Source: Cytophagales bacterium (GTDB lineage Bacteria > Bacteroidota > Bacteroidia > Cytophagales > Cyclobacteriaceae). Taken from it: 32,960 nucleotides of DNA. Positions 3,437 through 32,960 of the stretch are shown piece by piece (within the stretch, counting starts at the first letter, position 1; each line of letters opens with the position of its first letter). A program made the position numbers and the translations under genes. Where the stretch lies: positions 1-32,960 of the forward strand of contig JAKSDO010000013.1 of assembly GCA_022360055.1 (NCBI GenBank). Direction: 5' to 3'. The notes beneath the pieces were generated by a model, which was not told the DNA's origin, ran no database searches, and worked only from the letters and a program-made list of their open reading frames with translations.

Positions 3437-3859
3437 TCACCTGACAAGTTTCACTCCTGCCCCGGTTAAATAATTGATCCCCCCTTCCAGATTACAAACT
3501 TTTTTGAACCCGCTTTGCAACATATAATTAACTGCCTTTCTACTGCGGATGCCGGTCTTACAATACACGAAATATGATTTGTTCTTATCCAACTCATTGA
3601 TTCTCTTCTTGAAATCCTTTTGATACACATCGATGATGATGGCATTTTCCAGATGGCCGCGATCAAATTCTCGCTGCGTACGGACATCAATAATTATCGC
3701 CTGCCGGGTATCGGTTTCTAAATATTCCTTTGCACTCATATTGCAACCGGAAGCGGTTTCCACAGCGCCACCGCTTCTATAAATTCTCGATGCCATGAAT
3801 ATCAATAAAACGGGCGCTATAAAGATTAAAACGTTTTTCAAAACAACGGTCTTCATCAA
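3437..3859 (-). CDS. membrane-anchored single-domain rhodanese
   Basis: This 140-residue protein has an N-terminal hydrophobic segment (about residues 8-25), a signal anchor or cleaved signal, followed by one rhodanese domain. The active-site loop is CKTGIRSR, with the catalytic Cys in VYCKTG, preceded by the IIDVRTQREFDRGHL motif. It would accept and pass sulfane sulfur outside the inner membrane. Its start overlaps the stop of the upstream YeeE-type gene (ATGA), so the two are translationally coupled. That suggests it hands sulfur to, or takes it from, the transporter. It is the last gene of the sulfur island. Confidence 0.9.
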   Translation of the reverse strand: MMKTVVLKNVLIFIAPVLLIFMASRIYRSGGAVETASGCNMSAKEYLETDTRQAIIIDVRTQREFDRGHLENAIIIDVYQKDFKKRINELDKNKSYFVYCKTGIRSRKAVNYMLQSGFKKVCNLEGGINYLTGAGVKLVR

Positions 3860-4266
3860 TGTGGTAATCGATCTCTTAACAGTCCATAGGTCCAGGCACC
3901 TAACAAGGCAAATATCAGCGTAACTACAAATACGCTATATCCATTTCCAATAATCGCGAAAATCGGCCCCGGGCACGCTCCGGTCAGGGCCCAGCCAAGA
4001 CCAAACATAGCCCCTCCGATCAGTATCCCCTTGTTGTACGGTTTGGTCGGAAAGATGATATCTTCGCCGTTTACAGACTTCAGCTTTAACTTTTTAACTA
4101 ACATGATGGAAGCCGCCCCGACGATTACAGCCGATCCGATTATGCCGTACATATGAAAGGACTGAAAACGGAACATTTCCTGAATTCTAAACCATGAAAT
4201 CACTTCGGCCTTTGTAAGAATAATTCCAAATACGATTCCATAGACGACAAACTTAATATTTTTCAT
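3856..4266 (-). CDS. YeeE/YedE-type transporter subunit (DUF6691-like half)
   Basis: This 136-residue integral membrane protein has about four hydrophobic segments and the signature GLGWALTGACPGP (about residues 90-102), with a conserved Cys. It corresponds to the C-terminal half of the fused YeeE/YedE (TsuA-like) thiosulfate/sulfur-compound transporters. The other half is encoded just upstream at 4456-5013. The start codon lies exactly at the end of a 90-nt-class dispersed repeat (4267-4355). The 3' end overlaps the rhodanese gene by four bases. Moving sulfur-containing anions or persulfide sulfur into the cell is the family role; the exact substrate is not shown by sequence. Confidence 0.88.
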   Translation of the reverse strand: MKNIKFVVYGIVFGIILTKAEVISWFRIQEMFRFQSFHMYGIIGSAVIVGAASIMLVKKLKLKSVNGEDIIFPTKPYNKGILIGGAMFGLGWALTGACPGPIFAIIGNGYSVFVVTLIFALLGAWTYGLLRDRLPH

Positions 4267-4355
4267 ATGTTTATATTTTTTTAGATTGCGACACGCAGAG
4301 ATATATAGTCATGCTCTTGTGTGTCCCAAAATCGCTCCGGCCGTGCCGGTTTCAT
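4267..4355 (-). repeat. start-codon-linked repeat, copy B (89 nt)
   Basis: Read in gene direction, this begins ATGAAACCGG and ends AAAAATATAAACAT directly before the ATG of the YeeE-type gene. It aligns with 13791-13880, 32769-32858 and 32859-32948. The first hairpin is CCGGC-ACG-GCCGG; in the other copies it is CCGGT-NNG-ACCGG, which is a compensatory T-A to C-G change. The second hairpin has outer arms GACAC/GTGTC. The 13-base sequence TAAACATATGAAA occurs at both borders (4350-4362 and 4261-4273), as if the start-codon region had been duplicated. This is the most diverged copy, with one base missing near its end. Confidence 0.8.
4281..4355 (-). CDS. possible 24-residue peptide encoded in repeat copy B
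   Basis: The ATG that opens the repeat starts a 24-codon frame ending at TAA (4281-4283), 14 bases before the YeeE-type start codon. The peptide opens MKPARPERFWDTQEHDYISL and parallels the frames in the other repeat copies (pattern MxPxxPEx, then a short linker, then D-Y/C-I-A/S-L). It could be a leader peptide or an accident of a conserved RNA/DNA element. Differences between copies are often amino-acid-changing, so protein-level selection is not proven. Confidence 0.35.
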   Translation of the reverse strand: MKPARPERFWDTQEHDYISLRVAI

Positions 4356-4455
4356 ATGTTTAAAATTTGCAGAAACCTCGCCATGCGCCGTTGATCATCG
4401 TTATCCAGTGTATTTCAATAATTATCCCGGGCATCGCCTGTTTCATAGGTGCTTC

Positions 4456-13790: not shown

Positions 13791-13820
13791 ATGAAACCGG
13801 TAGGACCGGAGCAATTTTAG
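13791..13820 (+). CDS. possible 9-residue leader peptide in repeat copy A (TAG-truncated)
   Basis: The repeat ATG starts MKPVGPEQF and stops at TAG (13818-13820). In the other three copies the codon at this place is TAT, CAG or TGG, and the frame runs on to a stop just before the host gene. Beyond the TAG the same frame continues to the TAA at 13866-13868 with related residues (HDCIAL). Either this copy is a broken small gene, or the frame is not what selection preserves. Confidence 0.3.
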   Translation: MKPVGPEQF

Positions 13821-13880
13821 GACGCACTAGAGCATGATTGTATTGCTCTGGGCGTCAGCAGACTATAAAAATATAAACAG
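13791..13880 (+). repeat. start-codon-linked repeat, copy A (90 nt)
   Basis: It begins ATGAAACCGG and ends AAAAATATAAACAG directly before the oxidoreductase start codon. By hand count it differs from the copy at 32859-32948 at about 13 of 90 positions. Hairpin 1 is CCGGT-AGG-ACCGG (13797-13809). Hairpin 2 has outer arms GACGC/GCGTC and inner arms AGAGCA/TGCTCT. The outer arms are GACAC/GTGTC in other copies, a compensatory G-C to A-T change. A GAGCAAT near the first hairpin can alternatively pair with ATTGCTC in the second, an interleaved (pseudoknot-like or switch-like) option. Confidence 0.85.
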
Positions 13881-15212
13881 ATGAAGAAAATTGTCATCAT
13901 AGGAAACGGGATATCCGGAATTACAGCAGCCAGACATATACGAAAACTGAGTGCGGATCAAATTACTGTTATTTCATCGGAGACAGATCACTTCTTTTCC
14001 AGAACTGCCCTTATGTACATTTACATGGGGCATTTGAAATATGAACACACCAAGCCCTACGAGGATTGGTTCTGGAAGAAAAACAAAATCGACCTTGTCC
14101 GCGGTTTTGTGATAAATATAGATATTGATAAAAAAGTTCTCAGACTCAAAAAAGGCCGGGAAATAGGATATGATGTGCTCATTCTGGCAACCGGATCGAA
14201 ATCCAATAAATTTGGCTGGCCGGGTCAGGATCTGCCCGGTGTGCAAGGGCTGTACGCTTACCAGGATCTGGAAACAATGGAAGTTCATACCAGGAAGATC
14301 GACAGAGCGGTAATTGTAGGCGGAGGGTTGATTGGAATAGAAATGGCCGAAATGCTTTTATCAAGAAAGATTCCTGTGACTTTTTTAGTTCGGGAAACAA
14401 GTTTCTGGAATGTCGTTCTTCCGCCTGAAGAATCCGAAATGATCAATCGCCATATTCTGGAGCATCATGTCGACCTGAGGTTGGAAACCGAGTTGAAAGA
14501 AATCCTTTCCGATGAAAATGGAAGAGCAAGCGCTGCGGTTACCAATCATGGGGAAGAAATCTCCTGTCAGTTTGTCGGATTAACTGCCGGAGTAAATCCG
14601 AATATCGAATTCTTGAAAGCTTCAAAAATCCGCACCGATCGCGGTATTATCGTAAATAAATATTTTGAGACCAATATACAGGATGTCTACGCCATAGGAG
14701 ACTGTGCGCAGTTTGAAGTGCCTTTGCCCGGAAGAAGGCCGATAGAACAGGTCTGGTATACGGGCCGCATGCATGGAGAAACAGTCGCAAGAACCATTTG
14801 TGGGAAAAGAACGGCTTACCAGCCGGGGCCGTGGTTTAACTCCGCCAAGTTTTTCGATATCGAATACCAGGTTTATGGCGATATTAAAGGTAAAATTCCG
14901 GAAAATGAAGCGCATATCTACTGGGAACATCCGAATGGCAGGCAAGCCATACGAATTGCTTATGACCGGTCTACAACAAAGCTGCTTGGAATCAATCTGA
15001 TGGGGATCCGGTACAGACACGAAGTTTGCGATCGGTGGCTGAAAGCAGGCGCGAAACTATACGAAGTTATTTCAAACCTGAAGCATGCCAATTTCGATCC
15101 GGAATTTTATAAAGAATATGAAGACGAAATACTGGAAATTTATAATTCCAGATTCCCGGACCGCACCGTAAGGTCAACTTCCGGAAGAGGGCTCCTGGCT
15201 GTTTTTAATTAA
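13881..15212 (+). CDS. FAD/NAD(P)-dependent pyridine nucleotide-disulfide-type oxidoreductase
   Basis: The 443-residue flavoprotein shows an N-terminal FAD-binding dinucleotide fold (VIIGNGISGITAARHI), the ATG motif LILATGSKSN, a central NAD(P)H fold (AVIVGGGLIGIEMAEML) and the C-terminal FAD motif VYAIGDCAQF. No redox-active CxxC or CxxxxC pair is present, so it is not a disulfide reductase. It resembles rubredoxin/ferredoxin reductases and the FAD part of NirB-like nitrite reductases, and would pass electrons from NAD(P)H to a small iron-sulfur or rubredoxin-type partner. The next gene, 349 bases on, is a membrane 4Fe-4S protein and a plausible partner. Its start codon lies directly at the end of repeat copy A. 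Confidence 0.88.
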   Translation: MKKIVIIGNGISGITAARHIRKLSADQITVISSETDHFFSRTALMYIYMGHLKYEHTKPYEDWFWKKNKIDLVRGFVINIDIDKKVLRLKKGREIGYDVLILATGSKSNKFGWPGQDLPGVQGLYAYQDLETMEVHTRKIDRAVIVGGGLIGIEMAEMLLSRKIPVTFLVRETSFWNVVLPPEESEMINRHILEHHVDLRLETELKEILSDENGRASAAVTNHGEEISCQFVGLTAGVNPNIEFLKASKIRTDRGIIVNKYFETNIQDVYAIGDCAQFEVPLPGRRPIEQVWYTGRMHGETVARTICGKRTAYQPGPWFNSAKFFDIEYQVYGDIKGKIPENEAHIYWEHPNGRQAIRIAYDRSTTKLLGINLMGIRYRHEVCDRWLKAGAKLYEVISNLKHANFDPEFYKEYEDEILEIYNSRFPDRTVRSTSGRGLLAVFN

Positions 15213-15561
15213 CAATAATACCGTGCTGAGCTTTGCAAATCTCCGGGAGTATCACAAAATAATCTGTTACATAAAAGAATTCTAATGTCAAGTAAAAAAT
15301 ATTATTTCGAACGAAGTGAGAAATCTGGTTCAATCAACACCGGGCCACCACGAATAAGCCCGATCTCTCCTGACGTCGAGATGACAAGGTAGGCGCCTAC
15401 CGATGACGTGTTTTTATAATAATCTGTAAATCAAATAAATACACAAGATTACGTCATTCGAATTTGTGCGTTTTGTATAAAAAGTTAGGTCTCGAAAGGA
15501 CAAAAACGGCGTTTTATGATTAATTTAAGACTAGATAGACACTACGAATCCAGCTGAAAAG
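15213..15561. other. intergenic stretch with dispersed repeat
   Basis: No gene is visible. The centre is the second copy of the dispersed palindromic repeat (15288-15401). The remainder is AT-rich DNA leading to the membrane 4Fe-4S gene, without a promoter I can place confidently. Confidence 0.5.
15288..15401 (+). repeat. dispersed palindromic repeat, copy 2
   Basis: This is the reverse complement of 21-132, with a few substitutions. The two ends (TTTCGAACGAAGTGAGAAAT and GATCTCTCCTGACGTCGAGA) are imperfect inverted repeats. The 3' border is a perfect 14-base palindrome, GGTAGGCGCCTACC (15388-15401), which is degraded in copy 1. Confidence 0.8.
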
Positions 15562-23132: not shown

Positions 23133-24218
23133 ATGCCGGATTACTATGCGATTCTTGGAATTCATCAAAATGCCACCAGCGGGCAAATAAAAGTGGCGTA
23201 TCGCAGACTGGCCCTGCAATATCACCCGGATAAAAATCCGGAAAATCAACTGGCCGAAAAGCAATTTATCGAAATTACCGAAGCCTATGAAGTTCTATCC
23301 GATCCGATTAAAAGAGACAGGTATGACCTCGGCCTGGATTTTGACCTCAACGATGATTTCGATCTATACAGGGAAAGAAGAAGACCTCCGCCTCCCCACT
23401 TTTATTATAAATATAAACCGGAAAAAAAGGTCTACAGCCGACGGGATTACATGTACGCTACTGCAGCCGTTACGGCAATCCTAATCACTGCGGTCATATT
23501 TCCCATATATCTTTTGCAGATTACATCCGAAAAATACTTCAACAAAGCCGTCTCCCTGTATCTGGCCGGGAAGTATTATTCAGCTTTACACCATGTCGAT
23601 TTATCAATCAAAGACCTGAGCAGTACGAATGATGAGGCTTGTGCTCTGGCATCGGTAATACTCGTTCATAAGCTAAATAAATATGACTACGCCATTAAGT
23701 ATATCGACAAAGGGTTGGATTATGCTTCGGGAGATTCCCTTGAATCGGAATTTCATTACCTCAAGGGCATATGCTATGCCAAAACAGAAAAGCCTCAACT
23801 GGCTTTACTGGAATTCCGGCAGGTTCGGGAATCAAGTATTAATTACGACAGCAGTTTGTTCCGATCTGCCCTGATACTTACGTACCAGTCATCCGACCTC
23901 GATAGTGCGGAGCACTTACTGGATCAATTGATTACACGCAACGGGGAGAATTACGCCGCTCAATATTTCAAAGGGATTATCTTTGAAAAGAAAGAAGAAC
24001 ACCATAAAGCCTTTGAGATGTTTTCATACCTGGTGGGCAAATCTTTCAACCAGGCGGCCATCTACTATCATTTGGCGCGGTCCGAAATTAAACTCGATCT
24101 TTCCGATTCGGCGTGCGCTCACCTGAAAATAGCAAGTGATTTTAATTTAATGGAAGCCAAACAGCTTATGAATCTATACTGTAAGCAAGAATCGATTTTT
24201 ATGTCTCCCTACGACTAA
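23133..24218 (+). CDS. membrane DnaJ-domain protein with TPR repeats
   Basis: The 361-residue product starts with a complete J domain (residues 3-68) including the essential HPD in QYHPDKNP. A basic, Pro-rich linker is followed by one membrane helix (about 107-129, [20 protein letters not shown]) and tetratricopeptide-like repeats to the end (for example [15 protein letters not shown] and [15 protein letters not shown]). The J domain would sit in the cytoplasm to recruit DnaK, and the TPR part on the other face of the membrane. There is no Gly/Phe or zinc-finger region, so it is a specialised type III co-chaperone and not DnaJ itself. Its stop overlaps the metH stop by four bases (convergent). 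Confidence 0.9.
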
Positions 24219-27200
24219 ATGTCGTATGCAAGATTTTGGGATAACCACTTTTCAATTTCCTTTACGGCCATCCCTTTTCTTTCTGCGTAATCCTCTACCT
24301 GATCTTTTTGAATTTTTCCCAAGCCAAAATATCTTGATTCTTTATGGGCTAAGTACCAACCGCTTACCGAAGCGGCGGGATGCATGGCATAACTTTCGGT
24401 CAATTTGACGCCAATCTCTTTTTCCACTGCCAACAAATCAAAGAGCTTTCTTTTTTCCAGGTGATCGGGGCACGCGGGGTAGCCGGGCGCCGGGCGTATT
24501 CCCGTATATTTTTCCCGAATCAGGTCATCGCCTGACAATTTCTCAGATTTGGCATATCCCCAGTAATCTGTCCTTACTTTTTGATGCAGGTATTCGGCAA
24601 ATGCCTCAGCCAACCGGTCTGCCAAGGCCTTTGTCATTATGCTGTTATAATCATCAAGGTCTGCTTCAAACTTCGCCGCTAATTCTTCAGCGCCGAAACC
24701 GCAACTGACAACAAAAGCGCCGATATAATCATCTTTCGCACTTCGCTTCGGAGCGACAAAATCACTTAACGAATAATTCGGGAGGCTGGCAGCTTTTTTA
24801 TTTTGCTGACGCAAAAAATTAAGGGTCGTGATCACTTCCCGACCGTTTTCATGGTTGTAGACCTCTACATCGTCCTCAACTGCACTCGCTTTGTAGAATC
24901 CGAAAGCAGCCCTGGCAACAAGTAATTCATCCTCAACTATTTTATCTAACAACTGCAGGGCATCCTTATGAAGTTTCCTGGCGGTTTCTCCAACGACTTC
25001 ATCATCCAGAATTGCAGGATATTTACCGGATAATTCCCAGGAAATAAAAAACGGGGTCCAATCAATATATGGGACCAATTCTGCAAGCGGTATGTTTTCA
25101 ATGACCTTTCTCCCGAGGAACGATGGTCTTTGAGCGCTGTACTCATCCCAGTCAATAGCTACTTTCCTGGCGCGGGCCTCGACCAACGAAATATATTTTT
25201 TTGTTCCTCTTCTCAATTCGTAGTCTTGCCTCAGTTTCCGATATTCCTCATGCACTTCAGCTATGAGACTTTCCCTGAGCGCCGGGTCCGACGAAGTGAG
25301 TTTGCTTGCGACAGGCACACTTTTGGAAGCATCGATCACATGCATAACCGGGCCGCTGTAATTCGGATCAATTTTGATGCACGTATGAATTCTGGAGGTG
25401 GTCGCCCCACCGATCAGCAGCGGGATCTTAAAATTCCTTCGTTCCATTTCCCGGGCAACGTATACCATTTCGTCGAGCGACGGGGTAATTAATCCGCTTA
25501 ATCCGATAATGTCTGCCTTTTCCTTCTCGGCAGTATCCATGATTTTTTCCAGTGGCACCATCACTCCGAGATCTATAATCTCGAAGTTGTTACAGGCCAG
25601 CACAACACCGACAATGTTCTTCCCTATATCATGAACATCGCCTTTCACAGTGGCCAATAGAATTTTCCCGGCAGAATTAGAGCCTTTTACGTCACCCTGA
25701 TCAGCCTGTGCCCGCTCTATAAACGGAATTAAATAGGCTACCGCCTTTTTCATGACCCTGGCACTTTTCACCACCTGGGGCAAGAACATTTTGCCTTCGC
25801 CGAACAAGTCGCCGACTATGCTCATCCCATCCATAAGCGGGCCTTCGATCACTTTCAAAGGGTGATCATACATTTGTCTGGCTTCCTCCGTATCTTCCTC
25901 GATATAATCGAGCATTCCTTTTACAAGTGCATGGCTTAATCTTTTCCCTACGGGCCATTTTCTCCAAAGGTCGTCCTTTTCAATCTTTTTGCCCTCCCCT
26001 TTTACCTTTTCGGCAAACTCAATTAATCGCTCGGTAGCATCCGCCCGTCGATTGAGCAAGACATCCTCCACTCGCTCCAAAAGATCTGCCGGGATTTCTT
26101 CATACACTTCAATCATACCGGCATTTACAATGCCCATGTCCAGGCCGGCCTTGACTGCGTGAAACAAAAATGCCGAATGCATGGCCTCCCGAACCACATT
26201 ATTGCCGCGAAATGAAAAGGATATATTGCTGATACCCCCGCTCACTTTGGCGCCAGGGAGGTTTTCTTTTATCCATCTTACGGCATTTATGAAATCGACG
26301 GCATAGTTATTATGTTCTTCAATACCTGTGGCTACGGTAAGTATGTTCGGGTCAAAAATGATATCCTGAGGTTTGAACTTCACTTCATTTACCAGGACAT
26401 CATAGGATCGTTTGCAAATCTCAATTCTCCTTTGGAATGTGTCGGCCTGACCTTGCTCATCAAAAGCCATTACGATGGTTGCCGCTCCATACTTTTTAAT
26501 GAGCTTTGCGTGCTTTTTAAATGTTTCTTCCCCTTCTTTAAGTGATATGGAGTTTACGACGCTTTTGCCCTGAGTACATTGCAATCCGGCCTCGATCACC
26601 GACCACTTAGACGAATCGATCATGATCGGTAGTTTTGCAATTTCAGGCTCGGAGGCGACAAGATTCAAGAATTTGGTCATGGCCGCTTCGGAGTCCAACA
26701 TCCCTTCATCCATGTTTACATCGATGATCTGGGCGCCTCCTTCCACCTGGCTCATGGCTACGGCGAGCGCTTCGTCATATTTATCTTCTTTGATCAGTCT
26801 GGCAAATTTTCTGGATCCGGTCACATTGGTCCGCTCGCCAATATTTACAAATACCGAATCGGGCTTGACGGTTAGTGGTTCCAATCCACTGAGATGCAGA
26901 TAAGCGTCAGGTTGAGGTAATTCTCTCGGTTTATACCCGGCTACTTCATCGGCAATTGCCCTGATGTGATCCGGGGTCGTACCGCAGCATCCCCCGACAA
27001 TATTTACCAGACCTTCGGCCGCAAATTCGCCAAGCACCCTTGCAGTATGCGCCGGCGTTTCATCGTATTGTCCGAATTCGTTGGGCAATCCTGCATTGGG
27101 ATGGACAGTCACCGGCACGTGAGCGATTCTGGATAATTCCTGAATGTAGGTTCGCATCATATCTGCTCCCAAAGCACAATTCAATCCAACACTCAGGATA

Positions 27201-27952
27201 TCCATGTGGGAAATGGAATTCCAGAAAGCCTCGGTCACCTGCCCCGACAAGGTTCTGCCGGAGGCATCCGTAATCGTTCCCGAAACCATTACAGGTATTT
27301 TCTCCCGCCGCGCTTCAAATATATCCGATATCGCAAAAAGCGCCGCCTTGGCATTTAAGGTATCAAAGATGGTTTCTACGATTAACAAATCCACACCACC
27401 GTCCATCAAGGCGCCGGCCTGTTGCCGGTATACTTCGACCAATTGACTGAAGGTAATTGCCCGAAATGCCGGATCATTTACATCCGGGGACAACGAGGCA
27501 GTTTTATTCGTCGGACCGAGCGAACCTGCAACAAAGCGTGGTTTCCCCGGATCGTACGCAGTAACCTCTTCCGCAACCTCCCTGGCGATCTTTGCGGCAC
27601 GGTAATTTAAATCATGTACCGCAAATTCCGTATGGTATTCCGCCTGCGCCAGCGAGGAGCCGCTAAAGGTATTTGTGAGTATTATATCCGCGCCTGCATC
27701 CAGGTACTTACGTTCTATTTCCTTAACAATTTCAGGCTTTGTAATTGATAAAATATCGTTGTTGCCCTTTAATGGATAATCATGATCTTTGAAATATGCT
27801 CCCCTGAAATCCTCTTCGGTGAGATTATACTTTTGGATCATGGTACCCATGGCGCCATCCATCACCAGAATTCGTTCGGTCAATAGTGCTTTGATATCTT
27901 TCAAATCGATGCTTTTTAGTGTATTATCAGGAAAGTCTTGGAGATGAGTCAT
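24215..27952 (-). CDS. metH: cobalamin-dependent methionine synthase
   Basis: The 1245-residue enzyme methylates homocysteine using methyl-tetrahydrofolate and B12. The homocysteine domain (about 1-330) has zinc Cys residues in GLNCALG and [10 protein letters not shown]. The pterin domain follows (about 345-620; [24 protein letters not shown]). The B12 cap and binding region has the cobalt His in [11 protein letters not shown]. The C-terminal SAM-binding activation domain includes [12 protein letters not shown]. The start is the ATG at 27952. The open frame continues 16 codons further to a GTG at 28000, but that stretch lies inside a SAM-I riboswitch and is not coding. Expression should therefore fall when SAM is plentiful. 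Confidence 0.97.
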
Positions 27953-27961
27953 AACGGCCAA

Positions 27962-28055
27962 CTTATCTACCCGCAAACACTGTGCGGCGGGAATTGGCAC
28001 CGCTCACGGTTGCCAAGACATCATAGGGCCCGATCCCTCCGTCTTTCTTGATAAG
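27962..28055 (-). ncRNA. SAM-I (S-box) riboswitch controlling metH
   Basis: In mRNA sense the element opens with CTTATCAAGA and GGAGGGATCGGGCCC, continues with TATGATGTCTTGGCAACC and closes with GATAAG. P1 is formed by CTTATC (28050-28055) with GATAAG (27962-27967). The CTTATCAAGA...GGAGGGA...GGCCC...GGCAACC core is the S-box signature. It ends 9 bases before the metH ATG. With no terminator stem visible in that gap, control of translation initiation (P1 close to the start site) seems more likely than attenuation. Confidence 0.92.
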
Positions 28056-28060
28056 AACCG

Positions 28061-32402: not shown

Positions 32403-32768
32403 CTAAAATTGTCCGGTTTGGATTAAAACCAAATTACAGGCATTTTCCGTTTCAATACCGCGTAGATTCGCCAATTTGGCAAGCTCGGGATTTTCCGTTC
32501 CGGGATTAAAAATTATCCGTTTCGGCTTTAAATCCAGGATATAACAATACCATTCTTTCTGGTTCGAAGGACTAAGATATATGGTGACGGTATGAACATC
32601 TTCAACGGCGGGCTTTTCTTTTAAATTCAGGATTCTTTTCCCAAGAATCTTCCCCTCGCGAATTCCGACCGGAACAAATTCGAAGCCTGCATTGTCAAGC
32701 ATTCTGCCGGCAAGATTGGAATATCTTGAAGATTCCGGGCTGGCTCCGATCACAACCGTCTTTTTCAT
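32403..32768 (-). CDS. CoA-binding-domain (CoA_binding_2) protein
   Basis: The 121-residue single Rossmann-like domain has the nucleotide-binding start KKTVVIGASPESSRYSNLA, then VTIYLSP and RIIFNPGTENPELAKLA (given in parts: RIIFNPGTENP, ELAKLA). It matches the small YccU-like proteins that bind coenzyme A or a related nucleotide. There are no catalytic residues, and the physiological role is unknown. The ATG lies exactly at the end of a tandem pair of the 90-nt repeat, so its mRNA leader, if transcribed from upstream, contains both copies. It is 135 bases from gyrB, same strand, and probably a separate unit. Confidence 0.88.
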   Translation of the reverse strand: MKKTVVIGASPESSRYSNLAGRMLDNAGFEFVPVGIREGKILGKRILNLKEKPAVEDVHTVTIYLSPSNQKEWYCYILDLKPKRIIFNPGTENPELAKLANLRGIETENACNLVLIQTGQF

Positions 32769-32858
32769 CCGTTAATATTTTTATAGTTTGCCGACAATCA
32801 GAGCAATATAATCATACTCGTATGTGCCCTGAATTTGCTCCGGTCCCACCGGGTTCAT
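32769..32858 (-). repeat. start-codon-linked repeat, copy D (90 nt, tandem)
   Basis: This is the copy nearest the CoA-binding gene; in gene direction it runs from ATGAACCCGG to TATAAAAATATTAACGG directly before the host ATG. It differs from the adjacent copy C at about 14 of 90 positions by hand count. Hairpin 1 (CCGGT-GGG-ACCGG) is intact. The outer arms of hairpin 2 are reduced to GGCA/TGTC with one G-T wobble. Confidence 0.85.
32781..32858 (-). CDS. possible 25-residue peptide encoded in repeat copy D
   Basis: The ATG at 32856-32858 opens 25 codons ending TAA (32781-32783), 12 bases before the CoA-binding protein ATG. The peptide starts MNPVGPEQIQGTYEYDYIAL and ends IVGKL. It is the frame least disturbed by odd residues and would be the best candidate for a translated product, if any copy is translated. 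Confidence 0.4.
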   Translation of the reverse strand: MNPVGPEQIQGTYEYDYIALIVGKL

Positions 32859-32948
32859 CCGTTAATATTTTTATAGTTTACTGACACACAGAGCAATACA
32901 ATCTTGCTTGTATGTGTCATAAAATTGCTCCGGTCCTACCGGTTTCAT
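32859..32948 (-). repeat. start-codon-linked repeat, copy C (90 nt, tandem)
   Basis: This is the outer copy of the tandem pair. It begins ATGAAACCGG, ends TATAAAAATATTAACGG and is followed at once by the ATG of copy D. Hairpin 1 is CCGGT-AGG-ACCGG. Hairpin 2 has outer arms GACACA/TGTGTC and inner AGCAA/TTGCT. GAGCAAT/ATTGCTC offers an alternative, interleaved pairing. Confidence 0.85.
32871..32948 (-). CDS. possible 25-residue peptide encoded in repeat copy C
   Basis: The ATG at 32946-32948 opens 25 codons ending TAA (32871-32873). The peptide starts MKPVGPEQFYDTYKQDCIAL and ends CVSKL, parallel to copy D (identical at about 14 of 25 positions). The spacing from its TAA to the next ATG (12 bases) is the same as in copy D, so the two frames and the host gene form an evenly spaced ATG series. 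Confidence 0.38.
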   Translation of the reverse strand: MKPVGPEQFYDTYKQDCIALCVSKL

Positions 32949-32960
32949 CTTAAGATATTA

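Follow-up and report, generated by a model that had tools for sequence, protein, structure and literature searches.

A small, probably mobile repeat that mostly abuts ATGAA start codons of unrelated genes in a Cytophagales bacterium

Several described kinds of small bacterial repeat invite comparison with the family reported here. The palindromic elements of Rickettsia lie within reading frames and are translated. Miniature elements derived from IS200/IS605 are known as PATEs. A study of REP sequences places them predominantly downstream of coding regions (PMC3733652), and another study describes Bacteroidetes Y1 genes of subclass 2.6 with atypical structures on their flanks that recur in the genome (PMC6006769). 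Our search of the open-licence literature turned up no account of a repeat with start codons as its target and a start codon still present after insertion. Here we describe a repeat family whose copies mostly end at start codons, in the draft genome (7.5 Mb, 300 contigs) of a Cytophagales bacterium (GCA_022360055.1). The window, by which we mean the whole stretch of DNA that was analysed, is the entire contig C108 (JAKSDO010000013.1, 32,960 nt).

All four copies that a preliminary description had reported in the window are present with their borders, and the tail of each abuts an ATG: that of a YeeE-like gene, of an FAD oxidoreductase gene, of the next copy and of a CoA-binding gene, with the genes assigned by Pfam (Table 1). 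A fifth, diverged copy had been overlooked; it is of a second subtype, type II, and sits directly upstream of the copy at the YeeE-like gene. A search with the FAD protein gave metagenome bins of Bacteroidia and Cytophagales as its nearest named records. One end of contig C94 (L400) nearly repeats the left flank and first copy found at window positions 32859–32960, and because of this the two contigs may adjoin, with the assembly broken at the repeat.

Table 1. Repeat copies in the window, with the genes that follow them
Feature	Position	Strand	Remarks
Type I copy, 89 nt	4267..4355	-	Last in two-element array; host ATG begins at base 4266
Type II copy, 91 nt, ATGAAACAGG...TTTTAAACAT	4356..4446	-	First in array, head-to-tail with the copy at 4267
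Host gene 1, DUF6691/sulphur-transport (YeeE-like) protein	3856..4266	-	Begins ATGAAAAAT; Pfam; no repeat at this site in four relatives
Type I copy, 90 nt, single	13791..13880	+	
Left-end hairpin of the copy at 13791, 5-bp stem, 3-nt loop	13797..13809	+	Stem covaries across the family
Host gene 2, pyridine-nucleotide-disulphide/FAD oxidoreductase	13881..15212	+	Begins ATGAAGAAA; Pfam; repeat-free starts in five relatives
Type I copy, 90 nt, second in tandem doublet	32769..32858	-	
Type I copy, 90 nt, first in tandem doublet	32859..32948	-	Contig ends 12 nt further on
Host gene 3, CoA-binding protein	32403..32768	-	Begins ATGAAAAAG; Pfam

Other features of the window and the genome were met along the way. 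Positions 15290–15502 and 22–130 belong to another high-copy, palindromic and apparently intergenic repeat family with many matches in the genome (stretches of about 50–320 nt, GTCATTTCGA... and ...CGTCGAGATGACA), which is unrelated to the start-codon repeat. A SAM riboswitch at 27960–28057 on the minus strand scored above the gathering score and overlaps the predicted 5′ end of a 1261-aa ORF (24215–28000). The genome also holds a large expansion of sulfatase-like genes (for example L293 and L300–L309), and most of the 110 matches that a joined protein query gave in it fell on the sulfatase-like segment of that query.

The exact left end of the repeat, ATGAAACMGGYNNNRCCKGAG, has 214 matches in the genome and its reversed pattern has none; with up to two mismatches allowed the counts are 327 and 7. 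Since matches to the left end far exceed those to its reversal, the family is not a product of chance. ATGAA follows 62–74 nt past the 21-nt left end in 185 of the 214 exact matches. Nine of the 100 left ends listed had no ATGAA at the expected distance, and all nine (out of the 29 exact left ends that lack it) were traced: one is a contig end, one a shortened copy, one an internal duplication and six have altered right borders (ATGAG, ATAAA twice, GTGAA, GTGGA and one run of A). Elements in this genome mostly measure 88–91 nt. Neither the copies in 1.46 Mb of contigs nor the nine traced left ends included a long, autonomous copy. One unit, L042 (C12:46985–47081), joins a type II left part to a type I right part, apparently a sign of recombination between the two subtypes.

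Placement was assessed on contig stretches in two samples, of 810 kb (sample 1, window included) and 649 kb (sample 2), together 1.46 Mb. The contigs were long ones met in earlier results, many of them for holding a copy, and every copy on them was counted, so that placement is unselected while density is unrepresentative. A profile search of sample 1 gave 44 matches, one of which, at 11.7 bits, was left out, leaving 43 copies in 31 arrays. ATG followed directly after all 43 copies and ATGAA after 41. With gene starts predicted by simple ORF rules, 38 of the 47 arrays in both samples ended at, or no more than 5 nt from, an ATG that opens a frame of 80 codons or more (sample 1, 26 of 31 arrays, one of them via an ATG 5 nt further on; sample 2, 12 of 16). 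The other nine lay away from a recognised start; in the five from sample 1 the abutting ATG opens no frame of at least 80 codons, and one of those from sample 2 is cut by a contig end. These counts speak against random placement relative to starts, the outcome that the preliminary description had set against its own reading.

ATGAA is the commonest gene beginning in this genome. Outside genes and the repeat, ATGAA in sample 1 occurs at 198 gene starts and 393 non-starts, so that about a third of such sites are starts; for ATGAAA the counts are 104 and 152, and for ATGAAAA 57 and 57. Against these three baselines, the probability that at least 25 of 31 arrays lie at starts is 9.6e-8, 6.3e-6 and 4.4e-4, respectively, and start use was about 2.5 times the expectation from ATGAA sites outside genes. 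The first base past the junction ATGAA was A in 94% and the next base A in 71% of the 63 arrays (of 76) used for this count, whereas other ATGAA starts continue with A in 104 of 198 cases. ATGAA(A) is therefore the better notation for the target. Because a minority of arrays lie at an ATGAA without an 80-codon frame, this sequence describes it better than the term start codon does. The earlier proposal of a mobile or amplifying module that targets start codons is thus kept as regards amplification, evident mobility and a position mostly at starts, and is amended as regards the target. The genes concerned had been called unrelated, and the insertions do lie mostly at the starts of genes whose proteins are mostly unrelated to one another. 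A position inside an operon is no rarer for host genes than for other genes; a same-strand gene lies no more than 30 nt upstream of 11 of 25 host genes, compared to 58 of 198 in the background.

We compared the occupied sites with the orthologous sites of relatives. At the YeeE locus of G001, G002, G004 and G006 the upstream gene is followed by a few bases and then by ATGAAAAA, with no repeat, and here 180 extra bases stand between the matching spacer and ATGAAAAAT. The FAD gene has a repeat-free start in G001–G004 and G006 (in G002, 36 nt upstream were compared). With 15 host proteins as queries, 62 matches were obtained in four relatives, and 30 of them, covering 9 of the 15 genes, were examined. 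All 30 orthologous starts are without a detectable element, counting among them a PccB gene in G001 that may be a paralogue and a PII gene in G001 that is preceded by a stretch like a worn right end, below profile detection. Alignment by eye at PII, PccB, STAS and S41 matched both the upstream gene end and the spacer in most of the relatives shown; OsmC L372 and S41 L355, which gave no alignment or matched another place, are left out of it. In the PII case 8 nt lie between the stop codon and the junction in this genome, and in G006 the stop codon and the ATG are likewise 8 nt apart. The aligned upstream flanks at YeeE, PII, PccB, STAS and S41 place the insert at the start codon. Because same-genus relatives have orthologous genes without the repeat before them, the copies were evidently inserted rather than inherited.

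Copy numbers by pattern in seven same-genus genomes are 302 (this genome), 27, 9, 7, 4, 0 and 0, with no detectable copy in G002 and G006. The pattern undercounts diverged copies, since a cross-species model gave at least 10 matches in each of four genomes, G003 and G005 included. Within the family, this model had matches in 10 of the 390 genomes, spread over 5 of the 84 genera. Most of the genomes compared, like this one, are drafts. The elements of relatives have the same borders, a very different middle and a length of roughly 80–112 nt. Among 44 pattern matches in relatives, some of which are chance matches, 37 have ATGAA within 60–134 nt and 30 are followed by a frame of 60 aa or more. 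Of the 12 cross-species-model matches, 9 were examined for a frame, and 8 of these 9 are followed by one of 139 aa or more, the exception being L322 in G015.

The converse comparison took the host genes of relatives as its starting point. The best matches here to 13 such genes carry the element at the start in two cases, PfkB and a peptidyl-prolyl isomerase, and the PfkB start is occupied in three genomes. A third shared site, before a gene beginning MKI(I/S)CFIAG in this genome and in G001, was met during the host-protein comparison. Further host pairs (sulfatases at 51%; the L008 host and L280 at 37%) are family members that we take as homologues only. The shared sites exceed the number expected from independent random insertion and may be old insertions or repeated use of good targets. 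Vertical descent of the leader in all relatives, which the preliminary description had weighed, is contradicted by the 30 empty starts and two further empty loci, but some sites are indeed shared across species.

The survey of relatives yielded some further observations. A lone, distant copy in another genus (L327, G195) abuts the start codon of MKLYLDSDVLLDLL..., which is PIN-domain-like by eye. Two elements in G003 (L338 and L343) contain an extra G/C-rich inverted repeat within the hairpin loop and one in G005 (L269) contains one further in, seemingly one small repeat nested inside another. In G001, similar stretches (AAAAGC...AAATCC or ...TTTTCC) stand before the left ends L253, L257, L258 and L261; they may belong to a different repeat or form the end of an element of a third type.

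The first 24 nt of the element consist of ATGAAA, a hairpin with a 5-bp stem and a 3-nt loop, one base from the junction, and AGCAA. The right end is A/T-rich, TATAAAAATATAAAC-NN, with two or three variable bases before the ATG. Conservation was profiled on 28 of the 38 type I copies, those in sample 1 that lie exactly 90 nt before ATG. Differences per site from the consensus were 0.011 at positions 1–10 and 0.012 at 16–24, compared to 0.25 in the loop and closing pair (11–15), 0.128 in the middle (25–76) and 0.055 at 77–87. The left-end hairpin is kept by paired changes. Among 72 copies from both samples, pair 8–18 is C-G in 55, A-T in 11, T-A in 2 and broken in 4, and pair 11–15 is C-G in 31, T-A in 28, T-G in 1 and broken in 12, mostly as C-A; across 30 chosen sequences from several species, 10 double-change cells were counted against 2.5 in shuffles. 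A second predicted hairpin (31–66) showed no excess pairing (606 observed, 603 shuffled). The conserved left 24 nt fits a requirement for mobility. Conserved ends could also reflect selection on standing copies; a comparison of recent doublets addressing selection on the left end gave small counts that are partly alignment artefacts.

Altogether 76 distinct arrays (121 copies) were tallied, comprising 38 single type I copies, 20 type I doublets and, for the rest, mostly mixtures of types I and II; included in the tally are arrays truncated at contig ends, loci taken from the left-end pattern and one artefact of zero length (L008). All arrays found run head-to-tail on one strand, with no inverted pairs among them, and the PfkB array here has four units, I-II-I-II. 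Units are more alike within a doublet (0.87) than between loci (0.80–0.82), and the last four bases are common to both units in 15 of 20 doublets, against 5.7 expected, which argues that local duplication contributes to the arrays. Two loci on contig C223 carry the same damaged inner border, and this suggests that a doublet was also copied as one unit. A wider target duplication was considered and rejected: the 3 nt before ATGAA agree between left and right in 9 of 76 arrays.

Taking together the points that are directly supported (the family itself, its placement, the empty sites, the covarying left-end hairpin, the non-coding character and the arrays), we consider that the repeat is probably a miniature, non-autonomous mobile element that targets ATGAA(A) in one fixed orientation. 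A small element without an enzyme of its own would insert at ATGAA(A) in a single orientation and would then have ATGAA on either side, the upstream one retaining its former spacing to the upstream gene. The downstream ATGAA, whether derived from the host or from the element, would act as the host start codon, preceded by the A/T-rich end of the element; on its origin, orthologues of hosts with ATGAG or ATGAC did not separate the two alternatives. As a start codon and an A/T-rich, initiation-like region would remain, insertions at starts, even inside operons, would be tolerated and would accumulate. Head-to-tail arrays of up to four units would grow at the same border, because the flanking ATGAA is itself a target and because local duplication occurs. 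Such a mechanism would explain the exact placement, the tolerance within operons, the tandem growth and the conserved ends with a free middle. From genome comparison we infer mobility, and active transposition, neutrality of the insertions and initiation at the abutting ATG are likewise presumed. Judged by its position and composition, the repeat might also supply translation initiation or regulation to its host gene.

A further suggestion is that the repeat represents a new class of mobile DNA and that its insertion machinery, perhaps unlike known transposases, recognises start sites as such, beyond the sequence ATGAA(A), which could run through single-stranded, transcript-bound or ribosome-exposed start regions. 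Starts in sample 1 are indeed overused relative to the ATGAAA or ATGAAAA expectation as well. Selection against other insertions could likewise cause this overuse, and we regard such recognition as rather doubtful.

A narrower version of the reading as a non-autonomous mobile element, which we hold only tentatively, is that the repeat is REP/RAYT-like or derived from IS200/IS605 and that a Y1 (HUH) transposase mobilises it in trans. The hairpin adjoins a short fixed 5′ tag, orientation is fixed, no wider target duplication was seen, and Y1 genes were found in all seven genomes of the genus. A single-strand HUH/Y1 route is weakly favoured by the shortness of the target, by the single orientation and by a hairpin that lies one base from the junction, and the Y1 genes with atypical repeated flanks described in PMC6006769 leave room for it. 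Against it, the element occurs at none of 29 Y1/RAYT loci in these seven genomes (up to 1.5 kb scanned on each side, less at contig ends), where profiles from this genome gave one chance-level match (E 0.91) and the cross-species profile gave none. The palindromes flanking two Y1 genes of this genome read differently from the element by eye, Y1 genes are also present in the element-free G002 and G006, and the tag is not GT[AG]G. No mobilising enzyme for the repeat was found among the Y1/RAYT loci of this genome and genus. Phage and plasmid records gave no repeat match, and viral contigs none to the exact pattern.

Two other readings see the repeat as a functional part of its host genes or as a gene itself. 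A conserved cis-regulatory RNA leader, riboswitch- or attenuator-like, could mark a regulon, with functional placement and selected spread. The strong left-end conservation and hairpin covariation would suit a leader, as would the three sites occupied in more than one species (PfkB in three genomes) and an RNA fold that at one site reached z = -2.3, with 6 of 200 shuffles equally good. The host proteins are mostly unrelated, however, operon-internal placement is as frequent as for other genes, and copy numbers range from 0 to 302 among genomes of one genus. The orthologues are empty in relatives, both at the 30 starts of 9 host genes and at the YeeE and FAD loci; moreover, the second hairpin lacks excess pairing (606 against 603) and three copy-bearing loci had no Rfam match up to E = 1. 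Such a leader is in our view unlikely. Alternatively, each unit could be a small upstream peptide gene (MKPxxPEQIQDTHEHDYIALCVSKL) duplicated before other genes, as 90 nt make 30 codons in frame with the host ATG, which 25 of 63 units reach without a stop. The other 38 units are interrupted by in-frame stops, which fall at seven different codons; changes are distributed over the codon positions as 242/171/220, the synonymous share is 0.25 against 0.27 expected, and many copies have lengths that are not multiples of three. The stops, the codon-position spread and the synonymous counts led us to reject this peptide-coding reading, which can scarcely be right.

If the reading as a non-autonomous mobile element is true, one small repeat has given probably more than 100 genes of this genome (an extrapolated figure) a new upstream border, exactly at the start codon, and has not destroyed them. 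It would illustrate an element exploiting the sole position of a gene where insertion can be harmless, and the uniform leader segments on unrelated genes would be raw material for regulation. Bacteroidota mostly do without Shine-Dalgarno pairing, and the family would provide a natural experiment on translation initiation in this phylum.

Among described systems, REP/REPIN sequences with their RAYT (TnpAREP) proteins resemble the repeat in being short, extragenic and high in copy number, in the hairpin next to a short fixed 5′ tag and in their lineage-specific expansion. They differ in the tag, which is ATGAAA here (family alignment) and GT[AG]G in REPs, and in arrangement, since the arrays found here are direct and head-to-tail whereas REPINs are inverted pairs. 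They differ, too, in that no Y1 gene was found beside the repeat (29 Y1 loci, 7 genomes) and in that the repeat lies at gene starts while REPs, according to the study mentioned above, lie mostly downstream of coding regions (PMC3733652). Miniatures derived from IS200/IS605 share the short target, the fixed orientation and a hairpin near the left end. In contrast to them, the repeat showed no autonomous partner with the same ends in 1.46 Mb and nine odd left ends, its second hairpin is without covariation support, and its target coincides with translation starts. Like classical MITEs, it is small, non-coding, high in copy number and mobile as judged by empty sites, but a direct reading of the consensus shows no inverted repetition between its two ends, ATGAAACCGG and AAACGG-ATGAA. 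The Rickettsia palindromic elements are likewise small and tolerated although they invade the boundaries of coding regions, whereas the present repeat precedes the start codon and has no coding signature. Of these nearest kinds, REP/REPIN sequences and classical MITEs each fail a defining feature that was tested, and the IS200/IS605 miniatures may be related. We found no named mobile element that matches, and the family is probably best described as a small, non-autonomous mobile repeat with an unusual target.
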